From positions 62,001-126,000 of the forward strand of contig NZ_FQUS01000016.1 of NCBI RefSeq assembly GCF_900129315.1: 64,000 nt of DNA. Reading direction: 5' to 3'. The position numbers and the translations under genes are program-made. This stretch comes from Fodinibius roseus. GTDB taxonomy: Bacteria > Bacteroidota > Rhodothermia > Balneolales > Balneolaceae. The notes below the pieces were generated by a model. The model did no database searches, was not told the DNA's origin, and saw nothing but the letters and a program-made list of their open reading frames with translations. Every line of letters starts with the position of its first letter. Positions within the stretch are counted from its first letter, which is position 1. This document shows, in pieces, positions 25,286 to 33,637 of the stretch.

Positions 25286-25537
25286 ATGAAACAAAACTCA
25301 TCAGCAAGTCAAAAGAATTATTCATGGCCCGAACTGCCTGCTCCGGCCGAATGGCAAGAGACACTTGAGATGATTTACCTATGGTCGCAAATGGCTGAAA
25401 ATTCGGATGAGCTGCTGTTTGCCTTCCTTCAGTCAACCAATGAGGCGTCTGATGTGAACAGCGACTGGGATAGAAAGTCTTTGGGAAAAGATGAAGGGGT
25501 TGGGTTAGCTGCTAAACTGGCCGCGTACCCGACTTAA
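25286..25537 (+). pseudogene. DUF5996 gene with internal deletion
   Basis: The 83-residue frame starts YSWPELPAPAEWQETLEMIY, matching the N-terminus of DUF5996 proteins (WPxLPYxxWxxTxxTLHLWxQ), and continues FAFLQSTNEASDVNSDWDRK, matching their C-terminus (FLxSTYEAxAxxxxWDRxxLE). The family normally has about 300 residues, so roughly 200 have been lost in frame. The tail overlaps the convergent Crp/Fnr gene by 33 bp. Not expected to function. Confidence 0.6.
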
Positions 25538-26080
25538 TGTCTCGGGACTGATGCCCAGGTACGAAGCCACCAGATTCAGGGGTACCCGGTTCATGAACTC
25601 CGGATTCTGCTCTATCAGACGGTTGTATTTCTCTTCGGCGGTAAGCCCAAGCGCATTTTCCACACGTTGTTGCAGGGCCACATAGGCATTCTGGAGAATA
25701 ATACGATGGTAGCGTTCATAGGCAGGAATTTCCTCTAACAGCTTTTCGTGGTTTTTACTGTCAAGCACCAGAAGCTCACTGTCTTCAAGCACCTCAATAT
25801 TTAAGTTGGTTGGCTTCCTGGTGAAGAAACTTTGCAGATTTGCCATCCACCAGCCTTCAAAGGCAAAACGTATAACATGCTGGTTGCCTTTTGAATCCAC
25901 GGAGTAAGAATAGAGCGAACCCTTTTCCACAAAAGCCAGCTCGCGGCAAACATCGCCTTCCTGGAGCAGGAATTGCCGTTTAAGCATTCGCTTGGGACGG
26001 AATTTTTTTTTGCACATCTCCCACTGCTCATCGGTTAACGAGACATGCTCCTGAAAACTTTCTTTTAGTACCTGATACAT
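25505..26080 (-). CDS. Crp/Fnr family transcriptional regulator
   Basis: Regulator of 191 residues with a cNMP-binding-like beta roll (KRQFLLQEGDVCRELAFVEKGSLYSY) and a helix-turn-helix (VPLNLVASYLGISPETLSRVRG). No FNR-type cysteine set is present. This short Bacteroidota-type Crp protein ends right after the recognition helix. The YceI gene upstream and the NADP-binding gene downstream carry the same tandem TTGAY-N4-GTCAA site, so it is the obvious regulator; quinone or electrophile stress is a guess from the neighbours (CatE-like VOC, quinone reductase relic). Confidence 0.9.
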   Translation of the reverse strand: MYQVLKESFQEHVSLTDEQWEMCKKKFRPKRMLKRQFLLQEGDVCRELAFVEKGSLYSYSVDSKGNQHVIRFAFEGWWMANLQSFFTRKPTNLNIEVLEDSELLVLDSKNHEKLLEEIPAYERYHRIILQNAYVALQQRVENALGLTAEEKYNRLIEQNPEFMNRVPLNLVASYLGISPETLSRVRGQFSS

Positions 26081-27284: not shown

Positions 27285-27494
27285 TTGCACCCAAATTTTA
27301 ATGATGCGAACCAAAAACTTTACACAAAAATTGTTAACTCAAAAGCACAAAAACCCAAGAAAAAGAGCAAAAGCAGAGAGGAACAAAGAGAAATATTTCA
27401 GGAGCTATTGGCCTCCGGAGAGGTAGACACACAAGCTGAAATTGCCCGTAGATTTGATGTTAGTCGTGCCTGGGTTTCGAAGGTATTATCCTAG
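27285..27494 (+). CDS. Helix-turn-helix fragment, possibly recombinase C-terminus
   Basis: A 69-residue frame rich in Lys ending in a clear helix-turn-helix: TQAEIARRFDVSRAWVSKVL. No ATG exists in frame; the listed start is a TTG and the frame is open back to 27222 (GNKYKIDYQKLLNLHPNFND), so this is likely the tail of a longer gene. The ending resembles the DNA-binding tail of large serine recombinases (QAELARRLGVSRAxVTQVL). Position beside the island boundary fits an integrase relic, but this is inference. Confidence 0.4.
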   Translation: MHPNFNDANQKLYTKIVNSKAQKPKKKSKSREEQREIFQELLASGEVDTQAEIARRFDVSRAWVSKVLS

Positions 27495-28031
27495 TTCTTT
27501 AGTTTCTGAAAGAATTGATTGTGCCACAAAATCCCATGCTGCCTCATCAGGTAAGCTTGCCAATCGGTAGTTAAGGATCTCCATTAGATACTCGTTAAGG
27601 CGTACTTCCTCCTCACCAAGATTGCTTTTACCCTGCAGCGGTTGGAGGTTAGCTGCCGCTCCTGTTGCCATATCCCCTATCTCCCAGAGATCACTATCGT
27701 CAGGCTCCTGCATCTTTACATACTTAACCTCTTTACCTATTAGACGCTCAAACCGCACTTGTACATCTGGTATCAACTTGCCATCAATGGCATAGCTAAT
27801 ATCCCTGTATAGTTCAATCAATGACATCCATGCGGTTGTATTGTATCCATTTTCACGCATCTCGTTAATCTCCTTGGCCAGGGGACGCCTTTGTAAATAT
27901 CTGATCATAAGATTTGGGAGCATTTCTATTAAACTCCTTTTACAATTCGCTTTCTTGCCCCCCATCTTCAGAAGGAATTTTGTGCCTATATTAGAGTCTA
28001 GTTCTTGGTAACCCAGGATATCTTCAATCAA
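27486..28031 (-). CDS. Hypothetical protein next to YcaO operon
   Basis: A 181-residue frame with no recognised family. It is mixed helical, with a basic segment (KANCKRSLIEMLPNLMIRYL) near the N-terminus and an acidic C-terminal half. The listed start is a TTG; the first in-frame ATG is at 27965, which would remove 22 residues. It is divergent from the precursor-YcaO-TfuA operon, with about 100 bp of AT-rich DNA between, so a regulatory or immunity role is conceivable but unsupported. The 3' end overlaps the HTH fragment by 9 bp. Confidence 0.5.
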   Translation of the reverse strand: MIEDILGYQELDSNIGTKFLLKMGGKKANCKRSLIEMLPNLMIRYLQRRPLAKEINEMRENGYNTTAWMSLIELYRDISYAIDGKLIPDVQVRFERLIGKEVKYVKMQEPDDSDLWEIGDMATGAAANLQPLQGKSNLGEEEVRLNEYLMEILNYRLASLPDEAAWDFVAQSILSETKELG

Positions 28032-28128
28032 TAATTTACATATAAATTATTGTTATCGTTGCATTTATTAAATTATTTATCTATAGTTATTATAAGGATT
28101 ATAATTAATAATAAAGAGGAGGTTACCA

Positions 28129-28422
28129 ATGGGTGATGAAAAAAGACAAGAAAAAGTAGATCAAAAGCAGGAAAAAGGGGGATCGTTAATACGTGGTGCT
28201 GATGGAGCTCTATATTTTATTCCAGATGAAAAACTTAGTTCTTTTAAGTTGCCAGAAGAAGAAGCTTATCTTGCGGAAAAGCTACTTTTTCATCCAGATA
28301 ATTTACAATTTACTTCTTCTATTAGGGGTCGCCTTGTAAAGGATTCTTTGGGTTTGCGTGCAGGAGGATCTACTACAGTCAGCATAATGAATCTAAGTTC
28401 AATTCGTCAATTGAAGCGTTGA
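28129..28422 (+). CDS. Candidate RiPP precursor peptide (97 aa, no Cys)
   Basis: Small protein translated from a very strong Shine-Dalgarno (AGAGGAGG, 28113-28121) and placed 7 bp before the YcaO gene. The N-terminus is charged (MGDEKRQEKVDQKQEK), the middle is GGSLIRGADGALYFIPDEKL, and the C-terminus is LRAGGSTTVSIMNLSSIRQL-KR. It has no cysteine or tryptophan, no signal peptide and no transmembrane segment. Location, size and charged leader-like start suggest a ribosomally made, modified peptide with the modified part possibly in the C-terminal Gly/Ser/Thr stretch. It could alternatively be a small protein partner of YcaO/TfuA. I do not recognise the family. Confidence 0.72.
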   Translation: MGDEKRQEKVDQKQEKGGSLIRGADGALYFIPDEKLSSFKLPEEEAYLAEKLLFHPDNLQFTSSIRGRLVKDSLGLRAGGSTTVSIMNLSSIRQLKR

Positions 28423-28429
28423 GTTACAC

Positions 28430-29674
28430 ATGGTTCGCCTACTCAATGGTATTGAACCAGTCCCAAAAACATTTTATAGCGGTACTCAACGCCTGATTAC
28501 ACCAGAGAACACACTTTTACGTATTAATTGCTTACTAAAAGTAATGGGTATCACGCGTGTAGCCAATGTTACAGGACTGGATTCAATTGGTATTCCAGTG
28601 GTAATAGTAAGCAGGCCCAATTCCCGATCGCTAGCTGTTTCGCAGGGCAAGGGGCTAAATTTAGCTTCAGCGAAAGCTTCAGGTATAATGGAGTCTATTG
28701 AATCTTACCATGCGGAACATATCACACTTCCGTTAAAGTATGGTAGTTATGAGGAATTAAATTACACCCACCGCTTGGTAGATGTGGAAAGACTTCCCAA
28801 GATATCTGGAGGGCTATATCATCCTAATTTAAAAATATTATGGATTGAAGGGTACGATATTATTCAGGATGAGTTAGTCTGGATACCTTATGAAATGGTA
28901 CATACGGATTATACCCTCCCCCTTCCCGTTGGCAGTGGTTGCTTTCCAATTACTTCTAATGGTTTAGCTTCAGGAAACCATTTTCTAGAAGCAGTAAGTC
29001 ATGGTATTTGTGAGGTAGTAGAACGTGATTCAACTACACTTTGGAGATACTTTTCCGAAGAAAAAAAACTTAAATCTCGGATTAATTTGAATACCGTGGA
29101 CCATGTTCATTGCCTTAGAATATTAGAAAAATACAAGAAAGCTAATATTGAAGTTGCAGTGTGGGATACAACTACTGATGTTGGGATACCTTCTTTTCTA
29201 TGTACAATAATTGGAAAAGAGAACAACCCCCTTCGACCGCTTTATTCAACTTCTGGCATGGGTTGTCATCCCGTTCGGCATATTGCTTTGCTACGTGCAC
29301 TTACAGAAGCAGCCCAGAGTCGACTTACATTCATTGCTGGATCTCGTGATGATGCTATCCGAGGTAAGTATGAACGTTATCTAAATCAGGATATACATCA
29401 ATACTTTCGAAAGCAACTTGAAATAAAAGGTCCCTTACGTAAATATTGCGAGATTCCAACATGGGAAAGTAAAACTTTAAATGAGGATGTAAGTTGGGAA
29501 ATTTCCAAACTTACTTCGGCAGGGTTAAAACGAGTCATAGTGGTTGATTTGACAAAAAGTGAGTTTGATATACCTGTCGTTCGAGTTGTTATTCCAGGCC
29601 TAGAAAGTACAGATGAAGCACTAGGTTATGAACCGGGAATTCGTGTCAAAAAACAGCTGGAGAATTCCACATGA
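28430..29674 (+). CDS. YcaO domain protein (TfuA-associated type)
   Basis: ATP-dependent enzyme of the YcaO superfamily, 414 residues. YcaO proteins phosphorylate a backbone amide to form azolines, thioamides or amidines. Visible ATP/Mg motifs are ASAKASGIMESIESYHAE (E88, E91), SNGLASGNHFLEAVSHGICE followed by VVERD (E195, E198, R199), and LRALTEAAQSRLTFIAGSRD (E293, R298). The last block is characteristic of YcaO proteins paired with TfuA, the group that makes thioamides in methanogen methyl-CoM reductase and thioviridamide. The stop overlaps the TfuA start (ATGA). No McbC-type dehydrogenase or E1-like partner is nearby. Base composition is visibly AT-rich compared with flanking genes, indicating acquisition by transfer. 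Confidence 0.92.
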   Translation: MVRLLNGIEPVPKTFYSGTQRLITPENTLLRINCLLKVMGITRVANVTGLDSIGIPVVIVSRPNSRSLAVSQGKGLNLASAKASGIMESIESYHAEHITLPLKYGSYEELNYTHRLVDVERLPKISGGLYHPNLKILWIEGYDIIQDELVWIPYEMVHTDYTLPLPVGSGCFPITSNGLASGNHFLEAVSHGICEVVERDSTTLWRYFSEEKKLKSRINLNTVDHVHCLRILEKYKKANIEVAVWDTTTDVGIPSFLCTIIGKENNPLRPLYSTSGMGCHPVRHIALLRALTEAAQSRLTFIAGSRDDAIRGKYERYLNQDIHQYFRKQLEIKGPLRKYCEIPTWESKTLNEDVSWEISKLTSAGLKRVIVVDLTKSEFDIPVVRVVIPGLESTDEALGYEPGIRVKKQLENST

Positions 29675-31035
29675 GCATCTATATTTTTACTGGACCTACA
29701 ATTGCTTCAGATGAAGCACGAAATACACTTGACGCCATTTATCTACCCCCTGCCGAACAAGGTGATGTCTATAGGGTGGCACTAAAAAAACCAAAGATAA
29801 TTGGTATTATTGATGGTTATTTTGAACGTGTGCCCTCTATTTGGCACAAAGAAATATTATGGGCGATGTCCAAAGGCATACATGTTTACGGGAGTGCTAG
29901 CATGGGCGCACTTCGTGCAGCTGAGTTAGAACAATTTGGGATGATTGGAGTTGGGAAAATTTTTGAATCTTTTCAAAAAGGGACTCTTGAGGATGATGAC
30001 GAAGTTGCCGTGATACATGGAAACGAAGAAAATCATTATCAGACTTTATCTGATGCAATGGTCAATATTCGCCATACTTTTGCTAAGGCTGAAGCAGCCA
30101 AAATAATTAGCCCGGCAACGCGAGAAATATTGGTTAAGATCGCTAAAAATTTTCATTACCCTGAACGTAAATATCAAACGATCTTGCAAAAGGGTGGTGA
30201 TGAGGGTTTATCTAAAGAGGAATTAGACTTGCTAAATAATTGGCTACCTACAGGCAAAGTTGACAAAAAGCATGAGGATGCACTCTTAATGCTAAAAAAA
30301 ATCAATGGTTCCCTTAATGATAATTTAAAACCCAAAAAAATCACATATTCGTTCGAGTACACTGAAACTTGGGATAATTTACGACGATTTTCCGGGGAAT
30401 TAAAGATAGATTCTGATGCAAATTCCGATATGATTTTACTAAATAGAATAATAGATGAACTAAGACTCGACAGTGAAATTTATCCCAAGGCCTTCCAAGG
30501 TGCAATGATACGCCTTTTAGCAATTGATGAAACGTCTAGATTAAACGTAACTATTTCAGATAATATGTTGCAACAAACAATTAATAAATTTAGAATTGAG
30601 CGTGGGTTAATTAAACCAATAGAATTCAAGAATTGGCTTGAAGAGCAACACCTTACCAAAGACCAGTTTTTTCAGTTAATTAAAAGTGAAGCACGACTTC
30701 AGTGGATGGAAAATTTATGCTTGTCAGACGTAATGACTCAAATACCAGATTATTTACGATTACATGGTTTATACAGCGAACTATGTGAACGTGCCAAATC
30801 TAAACAACGCCTTCTTGAATCTCATGGTTTAGAGAATCCCCAACTGGCCGAGGTAGGGTTAACTGAAGAAAGTTTAATAAAATGGTATTTTGATGAACGT
30901 TTAAATCATCCAATCGTTGAAGATATAAAGCAGTACACAAAAGGAATTGGGATTGAGGATTTAGATGAATTTATTCGTATGGCATTACGTGAATTTTGTT
31001 TTCTAAAGTATAAAAAGGAAAATCAAAACTCATAA
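29671..31035 (+). CDS. TfuA-like protein with long C-terminal extension
   Basis: TfuA partner of YcaO, 454 residues. The TfuA domain (about residues 1-165) shows YIFTGPTIASDEAR, PKIIGIIDGYFERVPSIWHK and the core VYGSASMGALRAAELEQFGM. TfuA proteins assist YcaO in thioamide formation, thought to deliver sulfide. Here the domain is followed by about 290 residues of mostly helical sequence with a repeated FRxxxG..WLEEQxLTxDQFxxLI-like segment (about 308-345), not needed for the core fold and possibly involved in peptide binding. It overlaps the YcaO gene by 4 bp and ends the operon; an IS256-type left end begins just after the stop. Confidence 0.9.
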   Translation: MSIYIFTGPTIASDEARNTLDAIYLPPAEQGDVYRVALKKPKIIGIIDGYFERVPSIWHKEILWAMSKGIHVYGSASMGALRAAELEQFGMIGVGKIFESFQKGTLEDDDEVAVIHGNEENHYQTLSDAMVNIRHTFAKAEAAKIISPATREILVKIAKNFHYPERKYQTILQKGGDEGLSKEELDLLNNWLPTGKVDKKHEDALLMLKKINGSLNDNLKPKKITYSFEYTETWDNLRRFSGELKIDSDANSDMILLNRIIDELRLDSEIYPKAFQGAMIRLLAIDETSRLNVTISDNMLQQTINKFRIERGLIKPIEFKNWLEEQHLTKDQFFQLIKSEARLQWMENLCLSDVMTQIPDYLRLHGLYSELCERAKSKQRLLESHGLENPQLAEVGLTEESLIKWYFDERLNHPIVEDIKQYTKGIGIEDLDEFIRMALREFCFLKYKKENQNS

Positions 31036-31039
31036 AAAA

Positions 31040-31177
31040 TCGAGAGTGTAAATCTAACTCTGTCTAGGTTGGTAATTTAAAATCTACTAACTTAGGCAAA
31101 TCATGACACAAAAAGAACTAGATAAACTACAAGAAAAAGCGTTGGCTCAGCTTAAATCAGGTTGTAAGCTTCCCTAA
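31040..31177 (+). mobile_element. IS256-family left end and transposase start, truncated
   Basis: CGAGAGTGTAAATCTAACTC at 31040 resembles an IS256-family terminal repeat. ATG 31103 then reads MTQKELDKLQEKALAQLKSG, the conserved N-terminus of IS256 transposases, before changing into unrelated sequence and stopping at 31177. Only 24 codons remain of about 400. Confidence 0.65.
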
Positions 31178-33182: not shown

Positions 33183-33637
33183 TTGTCCCAGCATTTTTTG
33201 GGCATTGATGTGTCAAAAGATACCATTGACTGTTGGTTGCGTCCCCGCGGGGAATACAGCCCCCGGAAGGCTTCCAGCGACTGCACCGGTGGCTAAGCTC
33301 CCACAACTGCCCCCAACAGCACACCATCATCTATATTGAAGATACTGGCATTTACAGCGACCGCCTGTTGGCTAGCCTATCCCGACAGGGCTGGAAATGC
33401 GCCCTGCTTAAAACCACTGCTACTAAGAAAGTAGCCCCGGAACACCATCGCAAAGACGATCGCTTTGATGCCCGCCTGCTGGCCGAGTATGGCGATCGCT
33501 ACGCTGATCAGATTGTAAGCTTCCCGATTTTGAGGATCGCCACTACCATAAGGTGGATACGGCGTATGAGCATTTCGAGGAAAGAATGTAAACTGGCTGG
33601 CCTGCAGATGCCGGCCAGCGCCGATGAGGTACCGTAG
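33183..33637 (+). pseudogene. IS110-family transposase relic
   Basis: From a TTG at 33183 the frame reads SQHFLGIDVSKDTIDCWLRP, the DEDD-transposase start; after a frameshift near 33250 it continues in another frame as RLHRWLSSHNCPQQHTIIYI, EDTGIYSDRLLASLSRQGWK and KDDRFDARLLAEYGDRYADQ. First Asp, Glu and the Asp pair of the DEDD site are visible. After YADQIV the homology is lost and the C-terminal serine-containing domain is absent. Not functional. Confidence 0.75.

Follow-up and report, generated by a model that had tools for sequence, protein, structure and literature searches.

YcaO enzymes paired with TfuA proteins have been tied to thioamidation (PMC5589413), and TfuA is described as a hydrolase passing sulfide from a thiocarboxylated carrier (PMC13063428). 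A survey of thioamidated ribosomally synthesized and post-translationally modified peptides (RiPPs) distinguished 613 cluster families and 797 precursor families, with more than half of the clusters being proteobacterial (PMC8120280). Parts of these papers, and of the two others cited below, are compared here with a YcaO-TfuA operon at positions 28129-31035 of a 64,000-nucleotide stretch from Fodinibius roseus (contig NZ_FQUS01000016.1, positions 62,001 to 126,000 of the forward strand; hereafter the window). The operon encodes a small protein of 97 amino acids (aa), a YcaO enzyme and a TfuA. With a probability of roughly 0.6, it constitutes a minimal RiPP-type modification cassette, in which the small protein is a precursor composed of a leader and a core and the product is a thioamide.

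Like the proteobacterial thioamidated RiPP clusters, the locus combines adjacent YcaO and TfuA genes with a candidate precursor nearby; its leader motif and chaperone-like TfuA tail, in contrast, are unmentioned in the sections examined of the survey, whose main text contains the word "repeat" 0 times (PMC8120280). The window precursor family may be among the 797 families. Thiovarsolins (VarA/VarY/VarT; PMC6511847) also have a YcaO-TfuA pair and a repeated-core precursor, as do several relatives of the window locus. Their cluster additionally encodes an amidinotransferase, an ATP-grasp ligase, a heme-oxygenase-like protein and a major facilitator superfamily transporter (PMC6511847), whereas none of the four was recognised beside the window operon (Pfam scan of 12 open reading frames, ORFs, between 24107 and 37253, operon included and shorter ORFs left out), and the window tail is not clearly repeated. 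The methanogen McrA system (PMC5589413) shares its enzyme pair with the window: the TfuA encoded here narrowly clears the NF033432 cut-off (235.7 vs 235.2 bits), and its first domain fits the structure 6xp8. Unlike that system, the window YcaO remains below the TIGR03266 cut-off, a small ORF stands ahead of it, and TfuA carries an extra domain. A further parallel is MirC (TIGR04500), the SurA-like partner of the rosaritide graspetide synthetase, which is required for rosaritide biosynthesis (PMC13097080): if the extra domain is SurA-like, both cases involve such a domain serving a peptide-modifying enzyme. MirC, however, stands alone as a protein within an ATP-grasp system, whereas the domain in the window is part of the TfuA chain and lies far below the TIGR04500 cut-off. 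No description of a shared leader, changing cores and a TfuA fusion was found in the open-access literature searched, supplementary files excluded.

The operon and its leader-like motif

The operon comprises the following features:
28115..28122, + strand: ribosome-binding site AGAGGAGG, 6 nt ahead of the ATG
28129..28422, + strand: 97-aa small protein, proposed precursor (ORF with a leader-profile match)
28180..28260, + strand: leader-like motif GSLIRGADGALYFIPDEKLSSFKLPEE, residues 18-44 (found with profiles built without the window)
28261..28419, + strand: tail, residues 45-97, proposed core following the leader motif, with SSIR twice
28430..29674, + strand: YcaO enzyme, 414 aa (PF02624, E 4.2e-82; MJ1094, 6pe3, E 5.3e-40)
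29671..31035, + strand: TfuA, 454 aa, long form (PF07812, E 3.8e-48)
29671..30324, + strand: TfuA domain proper, residues 1-218 (AlphaFold2 model compared with 6xp8)
30424..31026, + strand: helical C-terminal TfuA domain, residues 252-452 (AlphaFold2 model), part of it possibly SurA-like

The three ORFs are separated by a 7-bp gap and then joined by a 4-bp ATGA overlap, as the initial annotation had read them; its AT-rich DNA, strong ribosome-binding site and Cys-free 97-aa protein were likewise confirmed. The GC content of the three genes is 0.36-0.40, compared with 0.464 for the whole window, and GC at third codon positions (GC3) is 0.20-0.28, compared with 0.47 and 0.54 in two neighbouring genes. 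Promoter and terminator scans remained at chance level, and a tRNA was the sole match of the Rfam scan. The YcaO enzyme (276.5 bits with PF02624) is the only one found in its genome; it had no match in phage records and no relative in viral contigs. Its conserved motifs are intact: G73-K74-G75, E88, E91, E195, E198-R199-D200, E293, Q296 and R298, positions which we take to include ATP-binding residues, are identical in at least 37 of the 38 aligned rows. Among NCBIfam families, it agrees best with that of McrA-glycine thioamidation (TIGR03266), scoring 252.1 bits against a cut-off of 365 bits.

Relatives were collected as 37 loci, after dropping the window's own copy (L013) and a locus in which no YcaO ORF was found (L063); two more, L123 and L124, were added later and stand outside the 37. 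A TfuA search of 385 genomes gave 24 places, of which 19 were expanded and two correspond to L005 and L006, while G689, G765 and one of G463 were seen as short loci only; plasmid loci derive from 10 of the 279 matching records. As about six Niveispirillum-type and five Azospirillum-type loci are among them, the 37 are not independent.

The 97-aa protein belongs to no family in Pfam, NCBIfam or PHROG. Residues 18-44 nevertheless recur as a leader-like motif in proteins adjoining YcaO-TfuA elsewhere, the named hosts being Alphaproteobacteria, and in many relatives the small ORFs next to the pair have RGADGxLYx[IV] in common. A profile of ten leaders built without the window retrieved the protein with E 4.4e-8 among the 587 window ORFs, the next ORF having E 3.7. 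When each group was left out of the profile in turn (5817 ORFs), the window was recovered with E 2.5e-7. Members of the Niveispirillum group scored between 2.6e-9 and 1.1e-6 and those of the Azospirillum group between 6.1e-7 and 2.2e-5, while G424, G512 and L017 were reached at 6.7e-6, 0.0046 and 0.0069, respectively. Smaller profiles also reach the window, which ranks first after the training rows with L066, L067 and L123 only (E 2.1e-7, 6118 ORFs) or with L061, L066 and L067 only (E 1.3e-7), and first after the training groups with Niveispirillum and Azospirillum leaders alone (E 7.7e-4). L123, a locus fetched after training, contains GLLLRRKNGTLYFVPDKELARFELPEE on the strand opposite its own YcaO-TfuA; this leader was found at E 0.0043 by a profile lacking it, and 15 of its 27 residues are identical to the window. 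Motif-bearing ORFs are present at E <= 3e-13 in 16 of the 37 loci (ten of these sequences being in the training set), and L017 follows at E 0.012. Taken together, the motif evidence is strong, though not blind.

In genome-wide searches, the next-best match in the window's own genome has E 0.17 with a profile that includes the window. Across 385 genomes of the class of the Aestuariispira genome G424 (presumably Alphaproteobacteria), eight matches have E < 1e-8, all adjoining YcaO-TfuA; as they are training sequences or close copies, they speak for specificity only. Thirty other genomes gave weaker matches (E 3.6e-4 to 0.05), and among 324 genomes of the wider phylum the only strong match was in G424, a training genome. 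Two weak matches, in G1102 (E 3.2e-5) and G1089 (E 5.6e-4), are accompanied by neither YcaO nor TfuA in the stretches fetched and were treated as chance. L123, reached via TfuA, is thus the sole new locus gained for the profile; the second new locus, L124, lacks a leader match at E <= 0.1. A direct search with the 97-aa sequence in 58 genomes, its own included, returned itself and three weak matches (E 0.001-0.009); these three, of which two fall within reading frames longer than 1000 aa, were treated as chance. The sequence had no match in plasmids. The small proteins of L006, L052, L060, L020 and L021 were considered as full-length homologues and dropped after an unsupportive profile test. 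Profile A2, which includes the window, retrieved in the 385 genomes three training genomes and one weak match (E 0.0069) only. The initial annotation would have counted the lack of a conserved small protein next to other YcaO-TfuA pairs as a refutation; its proposal withstood this check, the N-terminal motif being conserved there, although the tail is not.

The tails themselves are diverse. That of the window was tested against those of six relatives; it resembled none of them significantly, and the idea of a link was dropped. SSIR occurs in it twice, which is suggestive at most, since some repeated 4-mer appears in 335 of 20000 tail shuffles. The Gly/Ser/Thr-rich modification site LRAGGSTTVSIMNL, proposed earlier within the tail, gained no comparative support. 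Several relatives have tandem-repeat tails, such as RAVMAS, AGRWA[IV][ST]P and DDSQRHAANFIGTTP; among motif-bearing proteins, L055 contains 20 copies of AGRWA, L061 12 of RAVM and L054 five exact copies of DDSQR, while L066 and L067 contain repeats around GKQRFA. The ORF of L055 (5249-6202, reoriented; G504), a striking multi-core precursor candidate, has 317 aa, mostly AGRWA[IV][ST]P repeats, with the leader motif near its start; its end overlaps the beginning of the YcaO ORF. Another class of repeat proteins, missed by the leader profile, follows the protease-like gene described below in four loci:
L010:13988-14671: ten VSGSR repeats at the C terminus
L012:13991-14635: ten VSGSR repeats at the C terminus
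L058:9392-9895 (reoriented): eight VSGAR repeats at the C terminus
L062:10180-10782: four DLVGRS repeats at the C terminus
By eye, their N-terminal parts are alike, and they are candidate precursors as well. Beside the closest long TfuAs (L006, L052 and L060), proteins of 74-78 aa are alike over their whole length.

Long-form TfuA and the gene content of related loci

Residues 1-218 of the TfuA model superimpose on Methanosarcina acetivorans TfuA (6xp8) with Z 29.6 and a root mean square deviation (rmsd) of 1.5 over 215 aligned residues. The first reading missed that about 240 extra residues follow at the C terminus. They are predicted to be helical (mean predicted local distance difference test score, pLDDT, of 84.8 for the whole chain) and align in ten relatives chosen for length. 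Three lines, none decisive, point weakly to SurA-type chaperones. In profile searches, SurA_N_3 matches at E 4e-4, below its cut-off, and is seen in two of 11 long TfuAs, while TIGR04500 matches at E 9.4e-8 but with 31.7 bits against a 180-bit cut-off, and at E <= 0.05 in five of the 11, window included. In structural comparison, SurA chain 8qpv_F aligns with residues 254-351 (Z 5.9, rmsd 4.2, 94 aligned, rank 46), possibly reflecting a common helical arrangement. Foldseek, with the whole-chain model, gave E 1.5 and a probability of 0.77. Because MirC is required for rosaritide biosynthesis, a substrate-holding role for the C-terminal domain can fairly be inferred.

In eight of the 37 related loci, a protease-like homologue with an HExGH motif directly follows TfuA, and it could possibly be a maturation protease. 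Such proteins occur in L010, L012, L057, L058, L061, L062, L068 and L071, in which HExGH was checked, and also in L124. Most have 395-445 aa; one ORF is read as 532 aa and two run to the contig end. In Pfam, the L061 protein shows weak similarity to Peptidase_M4 and the L012 protein has no match. A search of the window's own genome for a homologue of the L061 protein, run without a positive control, found none. Class III cyclase-like ORFs and Crp/Fnr-like ORFs are each present in 21 of the 37 fetched stretches, counts for which no background rate is available; their recurrence hints at a link to cyclic-nucleotide signalling, with many of the loci coming from two genera. In L064 (8958-10438, reoriented), ThiS/MoaD-type carrier and ThiF/rhodanese-like ORFs were recognised by eye after TfuA; they would fit a carrier-fed sulfur route, and an ORF with IAAGQ-type repeats stands ahead of YcaO.

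No HExGH protease, class III cyclase, Crp/Fnr or ThiS/ThiF-type gene directly adjoins the window operon. The initial annotation had noted that no transporter or protease is adjacent, and no protease or export gene was indeed found among the 12 scanned ORFs. Its further step, that this could mean an intracellular modified protein, is weak: the protease-like gene follows TfuA in only eight of 37 loci, so that bare YcaO-TfuA loci are not rare, and transporters were not counted.

Neighbourhood, distribution and origin

The flanking genes are ordinary, encoding an NADP oxidoreductase (3.3 kb upstream of the operon), GNAT, a cyclic-nucleotide-binding protein, YceI, PAS-SpoIIE and CheR/CheB. The cyclic-nucleotide-binding gene (25505-26080) lies 2 kb from the operon, which may be a coincidence. 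Directly upstream, a divergent 181-aa ORF (27486-28031, - strand) has no Pfam, NCBIfam or PHROG match. Two elements named earlier as borders fared poorly: the "recombinase-like HTH fragment" (27285-27494) has weak helix-turn-helix matches only (best Pfam E 7.7e-4, below cut-off; PHROG "recombinase" E 0.0011), and the "IS256 end" (31103-31177) has no Pfam match, its 24 aa being short for such a test. One mobile-element feature was recognised:
33233-33637, + strand: IS110-type transposase remnant (PF01548, E 1.1e-8), about 2 kb from the operon

A search for TfuA (NF033432, E <= 1e-20) in a sample of 395 genomes of the window's phylum found it in one, the window's own; at E <= 1e-30, 20 of the 385 genomes of the class of G424 contain it. 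YcaO relatives with 45-50% identity come from Niveispirillum, Aestuariispira and other Alphaproteobacteria (eight loci), and others are on Azospirillum, Indioceanicola and Paracoccus plasmids (279 records at E <= 1e-20, with lower identity down the list). In a 38-row tree, the window is placed near Azospirillum-type rows at an unresolved fork, its highest identity being 50%. Composition (AT-rich DNA with low GC3) and distribution suggest that the operon was probably acquired horizontally. For an empty-site comparison, the neighbouring SpoIIE-type gene offered only partial matches (44-49% identity), in three of 11 congeners, which did not permit one.

Readings of the operon

An adjoining small ORF, a leader common to relatives and a divergent tail, as in RiPP clusters, here accompany a YcaO with intact motifs and an overlapping TfuA gene. 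RiPP precursors are built in this way, with a conserved leader ahead of a variable and often repetitive tail, and the earlier proposal that the small upstream protein is the substrate therefore gains real, though indirect, support. In a minimal RiPP-type cassette, residues 18-44 would be the leader bound by the YcaO/TfuA pair and residues 45-97 the core. YcaO would activate a backbone amide with ATP and TfuA would help to deliver sulfur, giving a backbone thioamide, a chemistry we infer because the enzymes belong to the YcaO-TfuA family. The C-terminal domain of the long TfuA, if SurA-like, would probably hold the unfolded precursor, replacing a separate recognition element. That the product serves as a small peptide signal or inhibitor is a guess.

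Several results weigh against such a cassette. The leader sequences were partly picked by eye for the motif, so that the training was not blind; the leave-one-group-out test did not recover the L066/L067 group at E < 1 and reached G504 only at E 0.13; and 20 of the 37 loci lack a leader-bearing ORF with the first leader profile. The motif also arises by chance in unrelated proteins, such as those of G1102 and G1089. A profile of the small proteins next to the closest long TfuAs lends no support to their being kin of the window protein (window rank 2 of 587, E 1.6), and the AlphaFold2 model of the 97-aa protein, built from 4 sequences, is poor (pLDDT 43). The window tail, moreover, has no relative, no convincing repeat and no conserved core, and the latter two would equally suit an unlikely alternative, in which the 97-aa protein would serve YcaO-TfuA as a recognition or adaptor subunit, while the modification would fall on a different cellular protein, like McrA in methanogens. 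Large proteins can be substrates of YcaO-TfuA (PMC5589413), and the whole-length likeness of the 74-78-aa proteins, not limited to the N terminus, would agree with an adaptor. In relatives, however, the motif heads proteins otherwise made of repeats, which is substrate-like, and in the window's own genome no other ORF matches the leader well.

Azolines and amidines are further products of the YcaO class, and the tail offers Ser and Thr, so the pair might instead install azolines, oxazolines or amidines on the precursor. A match of the YcaO to TOMM_cyclo_SagD would agree with this, albeit below the cut-off (137.6 vs 219.25 bits). We consider it improbable, as YcaO is paired with TfuA here, the 12 ORFs scanned include neither a recognisable ThiF-like nor an Ocin-type partner, and the best NCBIfam match, itself below cut-off, is to McrA-glycine thioamidation. 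Least probable is a decaying or non-functional passenger of horizontal transfer. The low GC3, the single TfuA genome of 395, the transposase remnant about 2 kb away and the lack of adjacent accessory genes would be expected of such a passenger, whereas all three frames are open and full-length, the conserved YcaO positions are kept, and neither the ribosome-binding site nor the tight spacing is disrupted.

The minimal RiPP-type cassette thus remains the preferred reading, and it might, more tentatively, represent a RiPP family undescribed in the open-access literature searched. In such a family, a single portable leader, L-x-R-G-x-D-G-x-L-Y-x-[IV], to which one subgroup, with the window among its members, adds P-x-x-x-L-x-x-[FY]-x-L-P-E-[ED], would bring varied, often repeated cores to YcaO/TfuA, and the long TfuA would hold the substrate via its fused SurA-like domain. 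In some Alphaproteobacteria, the HExGH metalloprotease could cut between repeats, and the cyclase and Crp/Fnr genes could exert control; the window would hold a version pared down to three genes and transferred horizontally into a different phylum.

YcaO-TfuA clusters are common, and their substrates are mostly predicted. A leader common to unrelated cores would provide a sequence handle for substrates beside otherwise bare YcaO-TfuA pairs, and its portability would be useful for enzyme studies. How such enzymes hold their precursor could be tested on a TfuA that may include a chaperone domain, and the three-gene form is small enough for one co-expression experiment.

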